Translations under genes and position numbers: made by a program | Assembly: GCF_004768465.1 (NCBI RefSeq) | Contig: NZ_SRMF01000006.1 | Location: forward strand, 1 to 64,000 | From: Natronospirillum operosum | Lineage (GTDB): Bacteria > Pseudomonadota > Gammaproteobacteria > Pseudomonadales > Natronospirillaceae | Length of the DNA stretch: 64,000 nt | Direction: 5' to 3' | The notes under the pieces: model-generated | Database searches by the model: none | Seen by the model: only the letters and a program-made list of their open reading frames with translations | What the model was told of the DNA's origin: nothing | Part shown: piece after piece, positions 23,266 through 52,333 of the stretch | How the letters are laid out: each line of letters starts with the position of its first letter | How positions within the stretch are numbered: the stretch's first letter is position 1

Positions 23266-25074
23266 ATGACCTACCACCCCAGCCTGCTGCTGGCTGTGTT
23301 CGGCAATCTGCAGGCACGCTGGCGTTCACTGCTGGTGCTGCACCTGTTCTTCGCCGGCCTTGGGGTGGCGGCCTTCCTGCCACTGAGCACCTGGATGGCC
23401 ACCCGCCTGCTGAGTGTCACCGGCGCTTCGGCTGTCAGCAATGACGACCTGCTGACCTTCGCCTTCATGCCCGGCGCCTGGCTGCTGGCCCTGTGCGCCG
23501 GCAGTCTGGCACTGACCCTGGTATTCGTGCAGTCGGCAGGCATTCTGATGTCACTGGAGGTCCATGGCCGCAATCGCTATCAGGCTGCCACCTCGGCGTT
23601 GCTGTCGGTACTGCAGCGGCTGCCGTCCATACTGGCGCTGGCGTGCCTGCAGGTGGGTGCCCACCTGCTGATTGCACTGCCTTTCCTGTTGCTGATCGGC
23701 GGGCTCGGCTGGTTCCTGCTGGCCGACTACGACCCCTACTATCTGGTCAACGAGTGGCCGCCGGCCATGCAACTGTTCACGGCCGGGGCCGGTGTGCTGC
23801 TGCTCGGCATGATCATGGGCAATGGCGCGCTCTACCTGCGCTGGGTACTGGCCCTGCCCGCCCTGCTGTTCGAACAGGTCACGCCCTGGGCCGCTCTGGG
23901 TCGCAGCCAGAGACTGACCCGCGGCTATCGCAGTCGCATTGCGCTGCTGATTCTGGCCAGCGCCCTGATCACGCTGGCCATGCCACCCCTGTTTTCGCTG
24001 CTCTACCGGCAGGGCGTAGCGCTGACACTGGACTGGATTCCCACCGTGCAGGGCCTGGTTATCAGCTACATGCTGCTGGTCATTCTGGGCTATCTGGTGC
24101 TGGTCGCTGTGCTCACCTTCATCGGGGTTTCGTTCAACAGCCTGCTGATCCGGCAGCTTTATCTGCGGGCCTGTGGCCTGCGTCGTACTCATGCGCCCAG
24201 GCCGGCCAGCCGGCTCAGCGGCTGGCTAAGCTGGGGCGCGGAGGCCGCCGTCCTGCTGCTGGCACTGGCGCAGGCCGGCTGGATTCTGCATGGCTTTTTG
24301 CATCTGGAAGACGAGGTCACCATCACGGCTCACCGGGGCAGCTCCATCAATGCGCCGGAAAATACCCTGGCGGCCATCGAACTGGCCATACAGGAAGGCG
24401 CCGACTATGTGGAGATCGATGTGCGGCAGACCGCAGACGGCGCCCTGGTCCTGCTGCATGACCGCGACCTGCGACGGCTGGGCGGCGGCAGCCGACCCAT
24501 CTGGCAACTGACGCTGGAGGAAGTGCGGGCGATCGACGCCGGCAGCTGGCACGACCCGGCTTTCGCCGCTGAACGCATACCGACTCTGGAAGAGGTCATC
24601 CACACCGTGCGCGGCCGCGCGCAGCTGTATCTGGAAATCAAGCCCAGTGCACAGACACCGGATCTCGCTGCGGATGTGATCAACCTGCTGCAGGCCGAGA
24701 ACATGCTGGACCAGACGCTGCTGGCCGGCCTCAGCCGCACCACCCTGGCCTCCATTGCCGACCTGGCTCCGGACTCCCGACGCGCCCTGTTCGTGCATTC
24801 GGTTGTCGGCACACCCGACTACAGTGGCCTGCATGCAGTGGGCAAGCGCGCGGCCATTGTCGATCGGGGTGCGGTCTCCCGGGCCCGTCGGGGCGGTTAT
24901 CAACTGCATGTGTGGACCGTCAACGACCGCGATCAGATGTCACGCTTTATCGACCTTGGAGTGGACAGCATCATTACCGACCGACCGGATGTACTGGCCG
25001 ATTTGCTGGCCGAGCGTGCGGCCTTGTCCGATGCAGAACTACTGCTGCTCAAGCTGGCCAACTGGCTGCGCTGA
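23266..25074 (+). CDS. Membrane-anchored glycerophosphodiester phosphodiesterase
   Basis: The 602-residue product has a multi-pass membrane region (about 1-330, the GPDPase_memb type) and a C-terminal GDPD catalytic domain (about 345-590). Visible active-site elements are HRG and ENT (AHRGSSINAPENT), the EID pair and LLHD. The family hydrolyses glycerophosphodiesters to glycerol-3-phosphate and an alcohol. Choline would be a relevant product beside a betaine pathway, but that link is inferred. The ATG at 23266 follows AAGGAG by seven bases. Confidence 0.88.
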   Translation: MTYHPSLLLAVFGNLQARWRSLLVLHLFFAGLGVAAFLPLSTWMATRLLSVTGASAVSNDDLLTFAFMPGAWLLALCAGSLALTLVFVQSAGILMSLEVHGRNRYQAATSALLSVLQRLPSILALACLQVGAHLLIALPFLLLIGGLGWFLLADYDPYYLVNEWPPAMQLFTAGAGVLLLGMIMGNGALYLRWVLALPALLFEQVTPWAALGRSQRLTRGYRSRIALLILASALITLAMPPLFSLLYRQGVALTLDWIPTVQGLVISYMLLVILGYLVLVAVLTFIGVSFNSLLIRQLYLRACGLRRTHAPRPASRLSGWLSWGAEAAVLLLALAQAGWILHGFLHLEDEVTITAHRGSSINAPENTLAAIELAIQEGADYVEIDVRQTADGALVLLHDRDLRRLGGGSRPIWQLTLEEVRAIDAGSWHDPAFAAERIPTLEEVIHTVRGRAQLYLEIKPSAQTPDLAADVINLLQAENMLDQTLLAGLSRTTLASIADLAPDSRRALFVHSVVGTPDYSGLHAVGKRAAIVDRGAVSRARRGGYQLHVWTVNDRDQMSRFIDLGVDSIITDRPDVLADLLAERAALSDAELLLLKLANWLR

Positions 25075-25142
25075 AAGAAGAGTGCCGTCAGCCTTTGCGA
25101 ACTGTTGAACATACGGCATCAATCAAGTGAGAGTAGTTCGTA

Positions 25143-25170
25143 TTGACCCTTTGCACCCAGCAACTATACT
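25143..25170 (+). promoter_or_regulatory. Sigma-70 promoter of mgtE
   Basis: TTGACC (25143-25148) and TATACT (25165-25170) with a 16-base spacer form a strong candidate. Transcription would start near 25177, leaving a leader of about 370 nt before the mgtE ATG. Confidence 0.75.
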
Positions 25171-25176
25171 GCCCGC

Positions 25177-25546
25177 CGTTATCAGCAGAACAGGACACCT
25201 CCAGTGGACTCCAGTAGTTGCAGGCGATCAAACGCCAGACAACAGGATGCAGTTCGCGCGCAGGTTGACCGATAAAGCAGACTCTCTTCTTCGACGCCCA
25301 GCGTCTTCCGCTTTAACGACTCACCTGCCGCCGACTGCCAAGCATCAGCGGAAGGTGAGCCGATCATCACCGGGAACAGGTTCAAGCCAAAACGCCTTGG
25401 CAGGCATTTTGTTTTTGAGCCATGCCCAACTGTTCTGCACTGACTACTGTGTCTGTGCGGTGCAGGGCGACAACGAATTGGCCCCTTCCTGAATCATAAT
25501 GGCCACTCTGCTCTGCAGAGGGCCGGAATGCACAAGGAATATCATC
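25177..25546 (+). promoter_or_regulatory. Long structured 5' leader of mgtE, possible Mg-responsive switch
   Basis: Segment 25347-25359 can pair in two ways: AGCGGAAG (25347-25354) with CTTCCGCT (25305-25312), or AGGTGAG (25353-25359) with CTCACCT (25320-25326). A short GACGC/GCGTC hairpin (25293-25305) precedes them. Downstream, CAAAACGCC/GGCATTTTG (25388-25411, one mismatch) followed by five T looks like an intrinsic terminator. Overlapping alternative pairings plus a terminator suggest attenuation. The sequence does not match my recollection of the M-box consensus. Confidence 0.55.
25388..25416 (+). terminator. Candidate attenuator hairpin in mgtE leader
   Basis: Stem 25388-25396 with 25403-25411 has one C-A mismatch and a TTGGCA loop. 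It runs directly into TTTTT (25412-25416), about 130 bases before the mgtE start. Confidence 0.5.
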
Positions 25547-26905
25547 ATGAGCAATACCGAACACGACAACACACCCGTACAGCATGTGCTGAATGACCTC
25601 ATTGCCCAGGAATTGTGGGAAGAAGTGCCGGCGCAACTCGACGAAATGCATGTGCAGGACATCGCTACGGTTCTGGATGATCAGGACAACGATACTGCCG
25701 TGCGGATTCTCAAGTTGCTGGCAGAGGAGCGCCAGCTTGAAGTCTTCTCCTATCTAAAAGAGGAAAACCAGTACGCTGTGCTGGATGCGATGGACAATGC
25801 CATCAGCCGCAAGCTGCTGCAGAGCCTGTCTTCGGATGACCTGACCAGACTGCTCGAAGCACTGAAGCCGGAACAGTCGGAGCCGCTGCTCAAGCTGCTG
25901 ACTTCGAAAGAGGTCAAGGCGGCGCTGAAGATTCTGGGCTACCCGGAGCAGAGTGCCGGACGTCTGATGAACACCGAGTTTGTCACCATCCGGCCTGACT
26001 GGACGGTGCGCGAAGTCTTGCAGCATGTGCGCAGTCAGGACAGCTCCGAGGAAACCATCAACACCCTGTACATTACCGATGAACAGGGCCACCTGCTGGG
26101 TACGGCAGGCATCAAGCGCATGGTGCTGTCCGACCCGGACACCCCGGTGGAAACCATGATCTCGAGCCCGCTGGTCAGTGTGCAGGCCAGCGATGACCGG
26201 GAAGAAGCGGTGCACCAGATTCAGCACTACGACATCAATGCACTGCCGGTGCTGAGCAAGCAAGGCATCCTGCTGGGTGTGGTGACTGTCGATGACGTCA
26301 TGGACGTGATCGAGGAAGAAGCCACGGAAGACTTCCACAAGATGGGCGGTACCAGCACGCTCAACCTCAGCCTGCGTGATGCGCGGCCGTCGCTCCTGTA
26401 TCGCAAGCGTGTCGGCTGGCTGGTGCTGCTGGTGTTCATGAACATCTTCGGCGGGGCGGGTATCGCCTACTTCGAGGAGACCATCGAGGCGGTGATTGCG
26501 CTGGTCTTCTTCCTGCCGCTGATTGTGGACTCCGGCGGTAACGCCGGTTCGCAGTCTGCCACGCTGATGGTACGTGCTCTGGCCACCGGTGATGTCAGGT
26601 CGAAAGACTGGCTGCGCCTCTGGGGCAAGGAGCTGGGCGTGGCGATTGCGCTGGGCATTACCATGGGCCTCGCGGTCTGGGGCCTGGGTATCTGGCGCGG
26701 CGGCCCGGAAGTGGGCCTGGTGGTCGCGATGGCGATGGTCTGTGTAGTGACCTTCGGCAGCATGGTGGGCATGGTCCTGCCGTTCGTGCTGGCCCGCATG
26801 AAGTTCGACCCGGCCACAGCGAGTGCGCCGCTGATCACGTCCATCGCGGATATCTGCGGTATTCTGATCTACTTCTCGATCGCCACTGCCGTGCTGACGA
26901 TCTGA
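25547..26905 (+). CDS. mgtE: MgtE magnesium transporter
   Basis: MgtE is a homodimeric Mg2+ channel gated by its cytosolic domains. The 452-residue product has the helical N domain (about 20-130), two CBS domains (about 140-265, with TEFVTIRPDWTV) and five membrane helices from about residue 290. The filter-region segment DSGGNAGSQSATL is conserved. The ATG at 25547 follows AAGGAA at a proper distance, and a 16-codon longer in-frame start is rejected. A terminator follows. Confidence 0.95.
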   Translation: MSNTEHDNTPVQHVLNDLIAQELWEEVPAQLDEMHVQDIATVLDDQDNDTAVRILKLLAEERQLEVFSYLKEENQYAVLDAMDNAISRKLLQSLSSDDLTRLLEALKPEQSEPLLKLLTSKEVKAALKILGYPEQSAGRLMNTEFVTIRPDWTVREVLQHVRSQDSSEETINTLYITDEQGHLLGTAGIKRMVLSDPDTPVETMISSPLVSVQASDDREEAVHQIQHYDINALPVLSKQGILLGVVTVDDVMDVIEEEATEDFHKMGGTSTLNLSLRDARPSLLYRKRVGWLVLLVFMNIFGGAGIAYFEETIEAVIALVFFLPLIVDSGGNAGSQSATLMVRALATGDVRSKDWLRLWGKELGVAIALGITMGLAVWGLGIWRGGPEVGLVVAMAMVCVVTFGSMVGMVLPFVLARMKFDPATASAPLITSIADICGILIYFSIATAVLTI

Positions 26906-26920
26906 TCGCACTGCAATCTG

Positions 26921-26947
26921 AAAAGGGCGCCTGCGGGCGCCCTTTTT
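26921..26947 (+). terminator. mgtE intrinsic terminator
   Basis: AAAAGGGCGCC, a short loop and GGCGCCCTTTTT form a GC-rich stem with flanking A and T tracts, 15 bases after the mgtE stop. Confidence 0.95.
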
Positions 26948-26990
26948 GTTGGCCAACGTTTTAACAAAATCGGATAGCGCCGGTTGCGAC

Positions 26991-27092
26991 GGAGGGCAGG
27001 AGACTCCCCGGGGACCGCTGTGAATACATCCCTGTACGCTACGGTTCGGCCGTCCCTGGCCTCAACGTTCCCCGGGGAGCCTCCTGCCCTCC
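26991..27092. repeat. 102-bp palindromic repeat, copy E
   Basis: A 24-bp terminal inverted repeat with one mismatch (GGAGGGCAGGAG..., ...CTCCTGCCCTCC) surrounds a core containing ACATCCCTGTACGCTACGG. A second copy, F, is at 29275-29376, and its arm bases have changed in step on both sides. It lies between the mgtE terminator and the ABC-F gene. Confidence 0.85.
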
Positions 27093-27210
27093 TGCTCGCA
27101 CCTGCCGAGGCAACATCCGACAAACATTCACCCTATTGTTTCGGCAGACTGGTGAGATCGTCAGGGTTCGAAGGTTGAAGCCGTCCGGAAGCGGCCGCAG
27201 GAGCCTCGTG

Positions 27211-27307
27211 CTGGGTGCAGGCACTGTGAGACCGTCTGCGGCCAGGGATGGCCGCAGTCGAGCTGTCATGGATGACGTTTTTGCGTGTCCCACAGACCTG
27301 CACCCAG
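27211..27307 (+). repeat. Cloverleaf intergenic repeat, copy C
   Basis: Outer arms CTGGGTGCAGG (27211-27221) and CCTGCACCCAG (27297-27307) pair perfectly. The inner stem CTGCGGCC/GGCCGCAG has a 6-base loop, and the second stem GTCAT/ATGAC is followed by five T. It ends 14 bases from the ABC-F stop. It forms a composite with copy E. Confidence 0.87.
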
Positions 27308-27321
27308 CGGAGGCCACACCT

Positions 27322-29028
27322 CTACAAGCGTTGCCAAAGCGCACTCAGTTCCTGCTCCCAGCGCGCCTGCCGGTCTGGTTTCTGGTGCTTCGGCTTGCGC
27401 GCGCGGTCCTGGGCCAGTCGTGTTTCGAGCTCGTCGATGCGCGCCAGCAGCGTCTCGTCATCCAGAGCATCAATGCTTTCCCGGATTGACTGAGTTTCGC
27501 CGGGCTGAGCCGACACCGTCGATTCCAGAGACTGATAGAAGCCCTCCGGCCCGGTCACTTCCTGCAGCCGGCCTGCGTTGATCCACCACCAGCGTGTCGC
27601 CACCGCTTCCATGAAATGCTGATCGTGGCTGGTCATCAACACCGTTATGTCACTGTTCACCAGCGCTTCGATCAGTTCGGCCCGGCCGTCGAGATCAATG
27701 TGATTGGTCGGTTCATCCAGCACCAGCACATTGGGCCGCTGCAGCCGAAACAGCGCGAATACCAGGCGGGCCTTTTCACCGCCGCTGAGCTGTTCGACCG
27801 GCTCATCAAAGCGCTCATAAGGCACGCCACTGTGCAACAGGGTCTGGCGGATGGCGTCGTCAGGGCCCGCCACCTGTTCGCGCAGCCAGTCGAAGCGACC
27901 CAGACCCCGGTTCAGTTCGGCCAATTGCTGTTCGTAGTAGCCCAACGTCACGCGCGGGTTCCAGCGAATGGGGCCATCCTCATGGTTCAGCGCGTCAATG
28001 ATGCGCTGCAGAGTTGTAGATTTGCCGACCCCGTTGATGCCCAGCAAGGCCACTCGATCACCCGGGCGCAGGTTCAGGAACTCGCACTGCACCAGCGTTC
28101 GGCCTGTGGCGGGCACGGTAACGGTCAGGTCCTCCAGCACCAGCACCTGACGGGCGGTCAGCCCGGTTTCCGGTAACGCCAGAGAGAGCCCGCTGCCCTG
28201 ACTGACAAAGGTGTAGTCGGCCCTGAGCCTGTCCGCCCGTTTGGCCATGGTTTTCGCCTTGCGCGACAGATCCTCGTTGTCGAAGGTATGGCCCCAGTGC
28301 GCCAGGCGTTTGGCAGAGGCCTCGATGCGGGCGACTTCCTTTTCTTCCTCGGCGCGGCGCGCTGCGGCCTGCTCATCGGCGTGGGCCAGCGCTGCTCGGG
28401 CACGGTCGAACGGCAGCTCGAAGCGGTACACCGTCCGGTCCCGCAGGATCCAGGTCTGACGACACACGGCATTGAGCAAATGCCGGTCGTGCGAGACCAG
28501 CACCCAGGGTTGATGCAACTGGGTCAGCCAGCGGCGCAATCGGGTCAGGCTGAGGATGTCCATGTGGTTGCCCGGTTCATCCAGCAGCAGAACATCCGGG
28601 TCAACCAGGATCGCCCGTGCCATCAGCAGCAGGTTTTGCTGGCCGCCGCTGAGTTCGGCCACCGGGATGTCGAATTGGCTGATTTCGAAGCCCAGCTTGT
28701 GCAACTCGGCTTCGGCCCGGTAGGCCTCCAGCTCACGTCGGGCTTCGGGCAGGGCCAGCTCGGCAGCTTCCCGCAAGGTACGCGCCAGCAGGGCTTCGGG
28801 GACAAACTGGTCCACCATGGCCACGACAACGTTGCGTTGGCTGCGGCGTTCGCCGTCATCCGGTGCCAGTTCACCCTGCAACAGTTTCAACAGGGAAGAC
28901 TTGCCGGAACCATTGTGTCCGACCAGACCGATGCGGTCGCCGAGGTTCAGATGCAGGGTCAGATCGACAAACAGGGGGTGTGCACCCAGGTTCAGGGAAA
29001 CCTGGGCGAGAGATAGCAATGCACTCAT
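27322..29028 (-). CDS. ABC-F family ATPase
   Basis: The 568-residue protein has two ABC domains and no membrane segments. Walker A motifs are GHNGSGKSS (about 38) and GINGVGKST, signatures LSGGQQ and LSGGEK, and the inter-domain linker is charged, as in ribosome-acting ABC-F proteins (Uup, YheS, EttA). A C-terminal coiled coil (about 510-568) favours a Uup-like protein. The first domain reads DEPGNHMD rather than DEPTNHMD. It is bracketed by two direct copies of a roughly 320-bp repeat composite. Confidence 0.9.
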   Translation of the reverse strand: MSALLSLAQVSLNLGAHPLFVDLTLHLNLGDRIGLVGHNGSGKSSLLKLLQGELAPDDGERRSQRNVVVAMVDQFVPEALLARTLREAAELALPEARRELEAYRAEAELHKLGFEISQFDIPVAELSGGQQNLLLMARAILVDPDVLLLDEPGNHMDILSLTRLRRWLTQLHQPWVLVSHDRHLLNAVCRQTWILRDRTVYRFELPFDRARAALAHADEQAAARRAEEEKEVARIEASAKRLAHWGHTFDNEDLSRKAKTMAKRADRLRADYTFVSQGSGLSLALPETGLTARQVLVLEDLTVTVPATGRTLVQCEFLNLRPGDRVALLGINGVGKSTTLQRIIDALNHEDGPIRWNPRVTLGYYEQQLAELNRGLGRFDWLREQVAGPDDAIRQTLLHSGVPYERFDEPVEQLSGGEKARLVFALFRLQRPNVLVLDEPTNHIDLDGRAELIEALVNSDITVLMTSHDQHFMEAVATRWWWINAGRLQEVTGPEGFYQSLESTVSAQPGETQSIRESIDALDDETLLARIDELETRLAQDRARKPKHQKPDRQARWEQELSALWQRL

Positions 29029-29274
29029 GTCAACGTCCTTCAGACTCTATATATCAGGTCCGGACGCCGAAGGAGGTGAGGCGTATAGGGGTCAGCTCAG
29101 TCGACGTCCACTCAGTGGCGGGAGGACGTCAGGCCTGCTTCCGAGGGGCACTGTGCAAAACCGAGACGGCACAAGCACAACATGTAGGGGCTCCTCTGTT
29201 GGGGTGAATGGAAGTTGCCAGCCTACCCGAAGCCGGGCTGCCTGGAAAGTGTCCCTTGTTGTTGGAGTGGAGAC
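29029..29274. other. Intergenic DNA upstream of the ABC-F gene
   Basis: No gene and no recognisable motif beyond the probable minus-strand ribosome site AAGGACGTTGAC before the ABC-F ATG. An imperfect dyad GACGTCC (29102-29108) with GGACGTC (29133-29139) is present. Confidence 0.4.
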
Positions 29275-29376
29275 GGAGGGCAGCAGACTGTCCGAGGACC
29301 GCTGTGAATACATCCCTGTACGCTACGGTTCGCCCATCCATGGGCTCAACGTTCCCCGGACAGTCTGCTGCCCTCC
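29275..29376. repeat. 102-bp palindromic repeat, copy F
   Basis: Arms GGAGGGCAGCAGACTGTCCG and its complement CGGACAGTCTGCTGCCCTCC enclose the same core as copy E. Compared with E, the arms differ at several positions and nearly all the differences preserve pairing. Confidence 0.85.
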
Positions 29377-29495
29377 TGCTCGCACCTGCCGAGGCGACAT
29401 CCGACAAGCATCCATCCTAGTTGTTTCGGCAGACTGGTGAGGTCGTCAGGGTTCGAAGATTGAAGCCGTCCGGAAGCGCCCACAGGAGTGGCGGG

Positions 29496-29592
29496 CTGGG
29501 TGCAGGCACTGTGAGACCGTCCGCAGCCAGGGACGGCCGCGGTCGAGCTGTCATGGATGACGTTTTTGCGTGTCTCACAGGCCTGTACCCAG
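29496..29592 (+). repeat. Cloverleaf intergenic repeat, copy D
   Basis: Outer arms run from CTGGGTGCAGG to CCTGTACCCAG. The inner stem CCGC...GCGG has one A-C mismatch, and GTCAT/ATGAC is followed by five T. It lies 23 bases from the stop of the LytTR regulator and 120 bases after copy F, the same spacing as E to C. Confidence 0.87.
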
Positions 29593-29615
29593 CGGACGCT
29601 TAAATGGAACAACCC

Positions 29616-52246: not shown

Positions 52247-52333
52247 TGGTACCAGTGGCCGGACTCGAACCGGCACGGGTGTTACCCCGGCGGATTTTGA
52301 ATCCGCTGCGTCTACCAATTTCGCCACACTGGC
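52247..52333 (-). tRNA. tRNA-Leu(CAA)
   Basis: The 87-base minus-strand sequence folds as a class II tRNA. The acceptor stem GCCAGTG/CACTGGT is followed by ACCA, so CCA is encoded. The anticodon loop TTCAAAA lies in stem GCGGA/TCCGC, there is a long variable arm, and the T loop is GGTTCGAGTCC. Anticodon CAA reads UUG. Its 3' end is duplicated downstream. Confidence 0.97.

Follow-up and report, generated by a model that had tools for sequence, protein, structure and literature searches.

A CorL-like upstream open reading frame in the switch-like mgtE leader of Natronospirillum operosum

The leader of a magnesium transporter gene, mgtE, in N. operosum contains a short upstream open reading frame (uORF) that is, in all likelihood, real and of the kind of Escherichia coli CorL. 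We propose that this leader is an attenuator driven by the uORF, which on balance seems the likely reading, and that Mg2+ is quite probably its signal; that the output is release of the mgtE Shine-Dalgarno (SD) sequence rather than Rho-dependent termination is close to evenly balanced, with a slight tilt against. Coordinates are those of the window, the whole 64,000-nt stretch of contig NZ_SRMF01000006.1 that was analysed, and are collected in Table 1. A preliminary description of this DNA had recognized a structured, switch-like leader and had overlooked its centre, the uORF at 25204-25275. Published leader systems are cited here from portions of the articles.

Results

The mgtE leader

The gene that the preliminary description placed downstream of the leader is indeed mgtE (381 bits to TIGR00400). 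We place its start at 25547 and not at the in-frame ATG 25499, since the nearest named relative found, a Natronospirillum MAG of a sister species (L033, MgtE 96% identical), has no possible start farther upstream. The promoter reported earlier is present as well, and it is the single site that the promoter scan finds in 24000-27000, where shuffles expect 0.6; by eye, boxes resembling it stand upstream of the uORFs of L033, L034, L039, L040 and L139. Searched with this MgtE, the genome gives six matches (one is weak), and it gives no CorA match at 1e-25; two of the paralogues, L026 and L138, lack such a leader. On its other side mgtE adjoins an ABC-F gene (27322-29028, minus strand), which is flanked by a direct repeat of about 330 nt (26983-27314 and 29267-29599, two blocks 88-91% identical). 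A tRNA gene (52250-52333, minus strand) is the sole Rfam gathering match in the window.

Folding of the leader beats 100/100 dinucleotide shuffles (z -3.88), and the view of it as structured and switch-like is supported; no Rfam family matches it at gathering or at E<=1, M-box (RF00380) included, in line with the earlier remark that it was unlike the known M-box and mgtA leaders. Its DNA has no similarity to plasmids, and among 57 genomes it resembles only its own genome and one sister. A true riboswitch, in which the RNA binds Mg2+ or another metal and the uORF is incidental, would agree with the strong folding and has a precedent in SRC-65-1, an mgtE motif of Thioalkalivibrio only that is rated a strong riboswitch candidate (PMC11109978). 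Like our leader, SRC-65-1 belongs to mgtE of soda-lake Gammaproteobacteria and has its SD paired in a stem, the consensus placing SD and AUG at the base of P4; the portion of the article seen mentions no uORF, and the two are set side by side by description, not by alignment. The missing Rfam match tells against a riboswitch, and so does the comparison by eye with orthologues whose MgtE is 64-69% identical, in which no RNA can be aligned beyond the start of the uORF. The part conserved across phyla, and shared with CorL, is the uORF, and a ribosome-driven attenuator is therefore likelier than a ligand-binding riboswitch, which we consider very improbable.

Table 1. Features of the mgtE leader in the window
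Feature	Position	Strand	Basis
Sigma-70 type promoter TTGACC-16-TATACT	25143..25170	+	Promoter scan
uORF Shine-Dalgarno AGGA	25192..25195	+	Sequence
uORF, GTG start, TAA stop, peptide MDSSSCRRSNARQQDAVRAQVDR	25204..25275	+	ORFs upstream of MgtE relatives; N-terminal motif
Codon 5, AGT (Ser), near-invariant across leaders	25216..25218	+	36/38 leaders
P1 5' arm, made of the final uORF codons plus stop; partner 25310-25338	25249..25278	+	Partition function; L033 fold
P1 3' arm, overlaps P2 5' arm	25310..25338	+	Predicted fold
P2 5' arm CTCACCTGCCGC, pairs 25348-25359	25320..25331	+	Fold; compensatory 25325:25354 in L033
P2 3' arm GCGGAAGGTGAG, also used by P3	25348..25359	+	Predicted fold
P3 5' arm GGAAGG..GCCGAT (SD-like), pairs 25477-25489	25350..25364	+	Fold; last pair lost in L033
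Hairpin, terminator of the preliminary description, unconvincing as terminator	25388..25411	+	Fold, terminator scan
P3 3' arm ATTGGCCCCTTCC, overlaps anti-SD	25477..25489	+	G-C to A-T at 25354:25485 in L033
Anti-SD TTCCT, pairs mgtE SD region 25535-25539	25486..25490	+	Predicted fold
mgtE Shine-Dalgarno AAGGA	25534..25538	+	Sequence
mgtE, magnesium transporter (MgtE_N, CBS, MgtE)	25547..26905	+	TIGR00400; PF01769/PF03448/PF00571

The uORF and its distribution

Reading the upstream DNA of MgtE relatives revealed, in several of them, a short ORF just 3' of the promoter. These ORFs begin with the motif M-[DE]-x-[PSC]-S-[SCR], which the uORF of the window has in common with 35 other distinct mgtE leaders and two leaders elsewhere. 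The uORF of L033 starts with TTG and encodes MDSSSCRRQFARQPTAVRAAG; over the first eight codons it differs from the window only in the start codon and in one AGT/AGC exchange, which is synonymous, and beyond codon eight the two diverge, with an indel. More distant relatives keep the N-terminus only: MEPCSWRF (L034), MDSCSCRS (L039), MEPSSSRS (L040), MEPWSRRA (L139), MEPPSRHY and alike in Halomonadaceae, MDLPSRCL in Pseudomonas sp. WN033 and MDDPSSRL in Nitrincola. Besides these and other Gammaproteobacteria, motif ORFs precede mgtE in Desulfonatronovibrio (MDLPSSRF), a Balneolia MAG (MDESSSRR) and two Bacilli (MDIPSSRF in L081, MDIPSCRF in L079). Two of the 38 leaders, L151 and L158, are manual additions in which we found no SD, and L284 and L286 do not lie 5' of a full mgtE (L284 has a short MgtE); L041 (MDTTCSRS) and L043 (MDADTGLP), seen by eye, fail the final regex and stand outside the 38.

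Of 152 distinct loci, 26 (among them the window itself and its sister) match this final regex, six residues plus an SD, at most 520 nt upstream of the mgtE match, where the rate in the remaining DNA of these loci, 3 matches in 1.04 Mb, predicts 0.23. For an earlier regex the count was 20 of 154, with 0.38 expected. Both had been tuned on the counted loci, and related species were counted separately. On the two strands of the 64-kb window the earlier regex matches once, at 25204. One of its 20 matches, the L086 ORF at -375, was rejected as false, as it opens with the M-box start sequence of L080 and L082. Fixed beforehand and applied to a phylum-wide draw, the same regex found the leader at none of 88 other proteobacterial mgtE loci, five of which (L167, L169-L172) were genes already seen without it, and the leader is therefore not general; an ORF MDPIPSPRWDE at L166, from this draw, is matched by a looser pattern only. 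Within the Halomonadaceae the leader stands at 13 of 30 mgtE loci (nine repeat leaders already seen), and 14 of the 17 loci without it sit behind a gene read by eye as atpC. When the leader is mapped as a label on a FastTree phylogeny of 170 MgtE proteins (37 rows carry it, five of them assigned by hand), it needs 18 changes, against 33.7 for shuffled labels: the leader is clustered on the tree, but with many gains or losses. A pattern blind to mgtE matched in 13 of 369 genomes, never 5' of mgtE, with three matches for the reversed-pattern control. One of its matches, the ORF MDSPSRTPPPTPDPALSESP... at L300 1517, begins 122 nt 5' of a protein that we read as CNNM/CorC-like, and may be due to chance.

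Likeness to CorL and constancy of codon 5

The motif had been derived without E. coli CorL, which fits it. Upstream of E. coli corA, ysgD (NC_000913.3 4001218-4001274) has a UUG start and reads TTG GAC ACA CCC AGT AGA, that is M-D-T-P-S-R, followed by Y-W, and it is the sole match to the motif on both strands of 12 kb. We identify ysgD as corL from its place and its UUG start, the start codon reported for corL (PMC11552253). The window, like CorL, has a short, SD-preceded uORF in a Mg2+ transporter leader, with a non-AUG start and AGT as codon 5; of the M-D-x-P-S-R of CorL it keeps D2, S5 and the AGT codon and has Ser for Pro at residue 4. Unlike the uORF of the window, CorL precedes corA and not mgtE, lies in a different RNA and has Rho-dependent termination as its reported output. 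At Pseudomonadales corA loci, 0/30 had a CorL-like leader.

Serine codon choice was no criterion in selecting the leaders, and AGT is codon 5 in 36 of the 38 distinct leaders, as compared with 79 of 791 Ser codons (10%) in mgtE of the same loci. The start codon is kept with a changing first letter (28 ATG, 8 TTG, 2 GTG), which favours translation, whereas the retention of AGT favours a constraint below the amino-acid level. When the nucleotide motif was searched with the two bases before GGA left free, 28 of its 30 matches upstream of 252 mgtE loci had NTG at that place (22 ATG, 6 TTG); the reverse strands gave eight matches in 0.86 Mb, one with NTG. The uORF of the window itself does not fit this stricter, nucleotide motif (T before AGT).

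Two alternatives bear on these codons. Conservation might be that of an RNA motif, UGGA-N6-SAGU-NG, and not of translation, for which AGU kept beyond the need of the amino acid would speak; the use of three start codons, the NTG in 28 of the 30 free-base matches and the reported translation of corL in E. coli (PMC11552253) make this reading very improbable. Alternatively, the uORF might sense slow decoding (AGU, CGA, AGG, UGU; charging of Ser, Cys and Arg tRNAs) rather than Mg2+. AGT at codon 5 fits, since any Ser codon would keep the peptide, and so do the codons after it, which in the 38 leaders are often AGT, CGA, AGA, AGG or TGT, the rarity figure covering AGT only. We nevertheless find sensing of slow decoding improbable, as the downstream genes are Mg2+ transport genes, two of them behind an M-box, and CorL expression is reported to rise with Mg2+ (PMC11552253).

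Predicted helices of the leader

The preliminary description had proposed two mutually exclusive pairings, and both complementarities exist: CTTCCGC (25305-25311) with GCGGAAG (25348-25354), and CTCACCT (25320-25326) with AGGTGAG (25353-25359), the latter extended by CCGC (25328-25331) with GCGG (25348-25351) into the helix that we call P2; the two do exclude each other. In L033 the second keeps all its pairs, one through C-G to T-A. The pairing of 25305-25311, by contrast, has a probability of 0.00 in every state tried in the window and gains a C-A mismatch in L033, and 25305-25312 was rejected as the main competitor. The modelled folds suggest stronger competitors, namely a helix with the last codons of the uORF (P1) and a helix that captures the mgtE anti-SD (P3). 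With its 5' arm free, P1 forms with a probability of 0.90-0.95 in the window, and L033 folds in the same way (no pair broken, three with a gap). Once the RNA upstream of 25270 is hidden, P2 reaches 0.98 in the window. Window and L033 alike are predicted to fold P1 when the uORF is free and P2 when everything as far as the uORF stop is cut away. G25354 of the window corresponds to A in L033, and each of the two bases with which it could pair, C25325 for P2 and C25485 for P3, corresponds to T; P3 loses its end pair in that species. Pairing cells are filled to 96% for the P2 set (slid controls 35-49%) and to 99% for the P1 and P3 set (33-51%), while column shuffles were as good in 254/500 and 244/500 cases, a comparison that is uninformative with two sequences and three substitutions.

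The opening predicted for the mgtE SD is small in the window. There the anti-SD:SD pairing has a probability of 0.93 with the uORF hidden and 0.66-0.80 with it free, the SD is unpaired at 0.29-0.33 with the uORF free versus 0.22 when it is hidden (0.25 free versus 0.21 masked in the masking test described below), and P3 remains at 0.09-0.20 when the RNA is full-length. In L033 P3 reaches 0.93, and the probability of an unpaired SD is 0.37-0.72 for the free uORF, varying with the start chosen for the RNA, versus 0.21-0.22 hidden. Dinucleotide shuffles gave a switch as large in 27/60 cases for the window and 9/60 for L033, neither sequence being clearly beyond them.

The terminator that the preliminary description placed at 25388-25416 did not hold up. 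The hairpin at 25388-25411 is absent from the terminator scan, its T's overlap the 3' arm and L033 has no T run; as aligned, 3/8 of its pairs are lost in L033, although by our own reading L033 keeps a comparable hairpin there.

SD accessibility in other leaders

In two leaders that we could not align to the window, L034 and L039, the helices follow one another as they do there: the end of the uORF, when free, pairs with the P2 5' arm, and removal of the RNA up to the uORF stop leaves a P2 of 9-11 bp together with a paired mgtE SD (L034) or start codon (L039). This layout was not found in L139, L131 and L040. In eight Halomonadaceae leaders the mgtE SD lies in a helix formed in 97% of cells (slid controls 23-57%), and in 82% (37-55%) the end of the uORF is an alternative partner for the anti-SD arm; compensatory changes were absent from these eight leaders.

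In 15 of the 35 leaders covered (L063 and L137 lie outside the test) the predicted accessibility of the SD dropped by over 0.05 on masking of the uORF, and in five it rose by over 0.05, the window being in neither group; in the motif-fitting subset of 31, 15 were lowered and three raised. The free SD was more open than with codon-shuffled uORFs in 17/35 leaders and less open in 4/35; in L005 and L139 a codon-shuffled uORF performs as well as the real one. The effect of masking has the wrong direction in L148, L151, L158 and the Bacilli L082 and L090, and the three leaders of the MEDPSSRL type (L056, L263, L264) show no SD effect. An earlier test by truncation had been mixed (9/30 up, 11/30 down); masking took its place after that result was seen, because truncation deletes the anti-SD arm in short leaders.

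These folds bear on a further alternative, in which the CorL-like uORF would work through Rho-dependent termination, the mechanism proposed for mgtA and corA: translation of the whole uORF would expose a C-rich stretch past its stop, and early abortion would let this stretch fold away. The region 25276-25345 has 28 C and 13 G in 70 nt (109 C and 94 G in the 370 nt of the leader), CorL and MgtL leaders are reported to work through Rho (PMC11552253, PMC11282234), and long leaders such as those of the MEDPSSRL type, lacking an SD effect, need another output. The recurrence of helices that close the mgtE SD in L033, L034 and the Halomonadaceae argues against Rho as the output, and we hold it to be unlikely, though a serious contender.

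M-box neighbours and gene context

The M-box is a known Mg2+ control element of mgtE that the window does not have. An Rfam scan of 20 loci found it in L079-L082 and not in the other 16. In two Bacilli, L079 and L081, the motif uORF stands between the M-box and mgtE; in M. tuberculosis a conserved uORF, though not this one, is reported to be under the control of an M-box (PMC12810186). L080 and L082 also have SD-led ORFs between M-box and mgtE, which begin with M-[DE] and fall outside the motif. More widely, Bacilli mgtE genes are preceded by strongly SD-led short ORFs with an M-[DE] start and D/E and P residues, namely MDSSPDSEWPES at -145 in L080, MEVPASIEPPD at -132 in L082, MDGSPSPEPHS at -126 in L086 and MDDGSEPSS at -153 in L090 (positions relative to the mgtE match); judging by their sequence, these four look more like MgtL-type drop-off sequences. 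The same upstream listing shows no such ORF for L093 and L094.

Other genes also occur behind these leaders. At L287 (924-5703) a CorL-like leader precedes the gene row mgtE-mgtC-mgtE-cobW. At L284 the leader is followed by a short MgtE and an outer-membrane-like protein, a homologue of which sits between leader and mgtE at L037 and L052. This small family (L284 4730-5500, L037 793-1473, L052 669-1388; 30-37% identity) has no Pfam match; it is probably an outer-membrane family and possibly part of Mg2+ uptake.

Discussion

Leader ORFs that tie translation to Mg2+ transporter genes are an already known kind, represented by CorL, mgtQ and MgtL, in which poor or aborted translation is reported to go with more transporter (PMC11282234, PMC11552253, PMC8092293). 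Since these three share that logic, we infer it by analogy for the window. CorL translation is reported to be inverse to corA expression and raised by Mg2+, and the corA leader to adopt mutually exclusive folds whose output passes through Rho-dependent termination (PMC11552253). For the uORF mgtQ, between mgtC and mgtB of Salmonella, premature abortion is reported to raise the transporter, the SD being freed by alternative stem-loops (PMC8092293). Like the uORF of the window mgtQ is short, has an acidic residue 2 and is tied to the SD of a Mg2+ transporter gene. Its residue 5, however, is Glu where the window has Ser, a residue that most alternatives of the regex used to collect the leaders demand, and the pair Asp2 and Glu5 is thus absent from the window's peptide; moreover, mgtB is reported to be off when mgtQ is not translated, the opposite of what would be expected of an untranslated uORF in the window. 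MgtL, at which drop-off at low Mg2+ is reported to turn mgtA on via Rho (PMC11282234), is likewise a short uORF before a Mg2+ transporter gene with an acidic residue first after the start, and shares M-E-P with some leaders. It differs in its EPDP motif, its many prolines, its Rho output and the absence of AGT at codon 5. Many other leaders have D/E2 with P3 or P4; the window has neither an EPDP-like nor a repeated acidic start, its peptide having a single acidic residue among the first 14 and no Pro, and its N-terminus, MDSSSC, is a weaker drop-off signal than EPDP.

We propose the following working of the uORF-driven attenuator. With ample Mg2+, ribosomes would complete the uORF and occupy the P1 5' arm, P2 would form, and the anti-SD would hold the mgtE SD shut, keeping mgtE off. 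With scarce Mg2+, ribosomes would not get past the first codons (M-D/E-x-x-S), where they would stall or drop off, allowing P1 to form; the freed GGAAGG..GCCGAT arm would then capture the anti-SD in P3, the SD would open and mgtE would be made. The route of abortion could be drop-off, stalling or slow decoding of AGU, and the output SD release or Rho. Mg2+ is plausible as the signal by analogy, given the gene context, the M-box in two Bacilli and the likeness to CorL.

As far as our searches go, the CorL-like uORF on mgtE across phyla, the constancy of AGU and the particular RNA switch are new. No paper had both corL and mgtE as whole words, and no title or abstract start described a uORF-controlled mgtE, in searches that covered little of the subscription literature; five motif peptide strings matched in two unrelated papers only.

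It is tempting, if still tentative, to see here one ancient Mg2+-responsive translation signal, made of the first five or six codons, start-GA(N)-N6-AGU-NG, and attached across phyla to differing uptake genes and RNA switches. Its carriers would be corA in E. coli, mgtE in halophiles and others, and M-box mgtE in some Bacilli, two of which have leader ORF and M-box on one mRNA. Such a signal would explain why the mgtE leaders of soda-lake bacteria can look like riboswitches though their conserved part is a uORF. Mg2+ sensing by the corA leader is called uncharacterized (PMC11552253), and a start sequence shared by unrelated mgtE mRNAs, down to one Ser codon, offers a comparative handle on it, with residues 2 and 5 and the AGU codon as sites of interest for mutation. 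If the signal is indeed common, the near-invariant AGU would mean that sensing needs a specific codon decoded with a four-residue nascent chain, and not the peptide alone.
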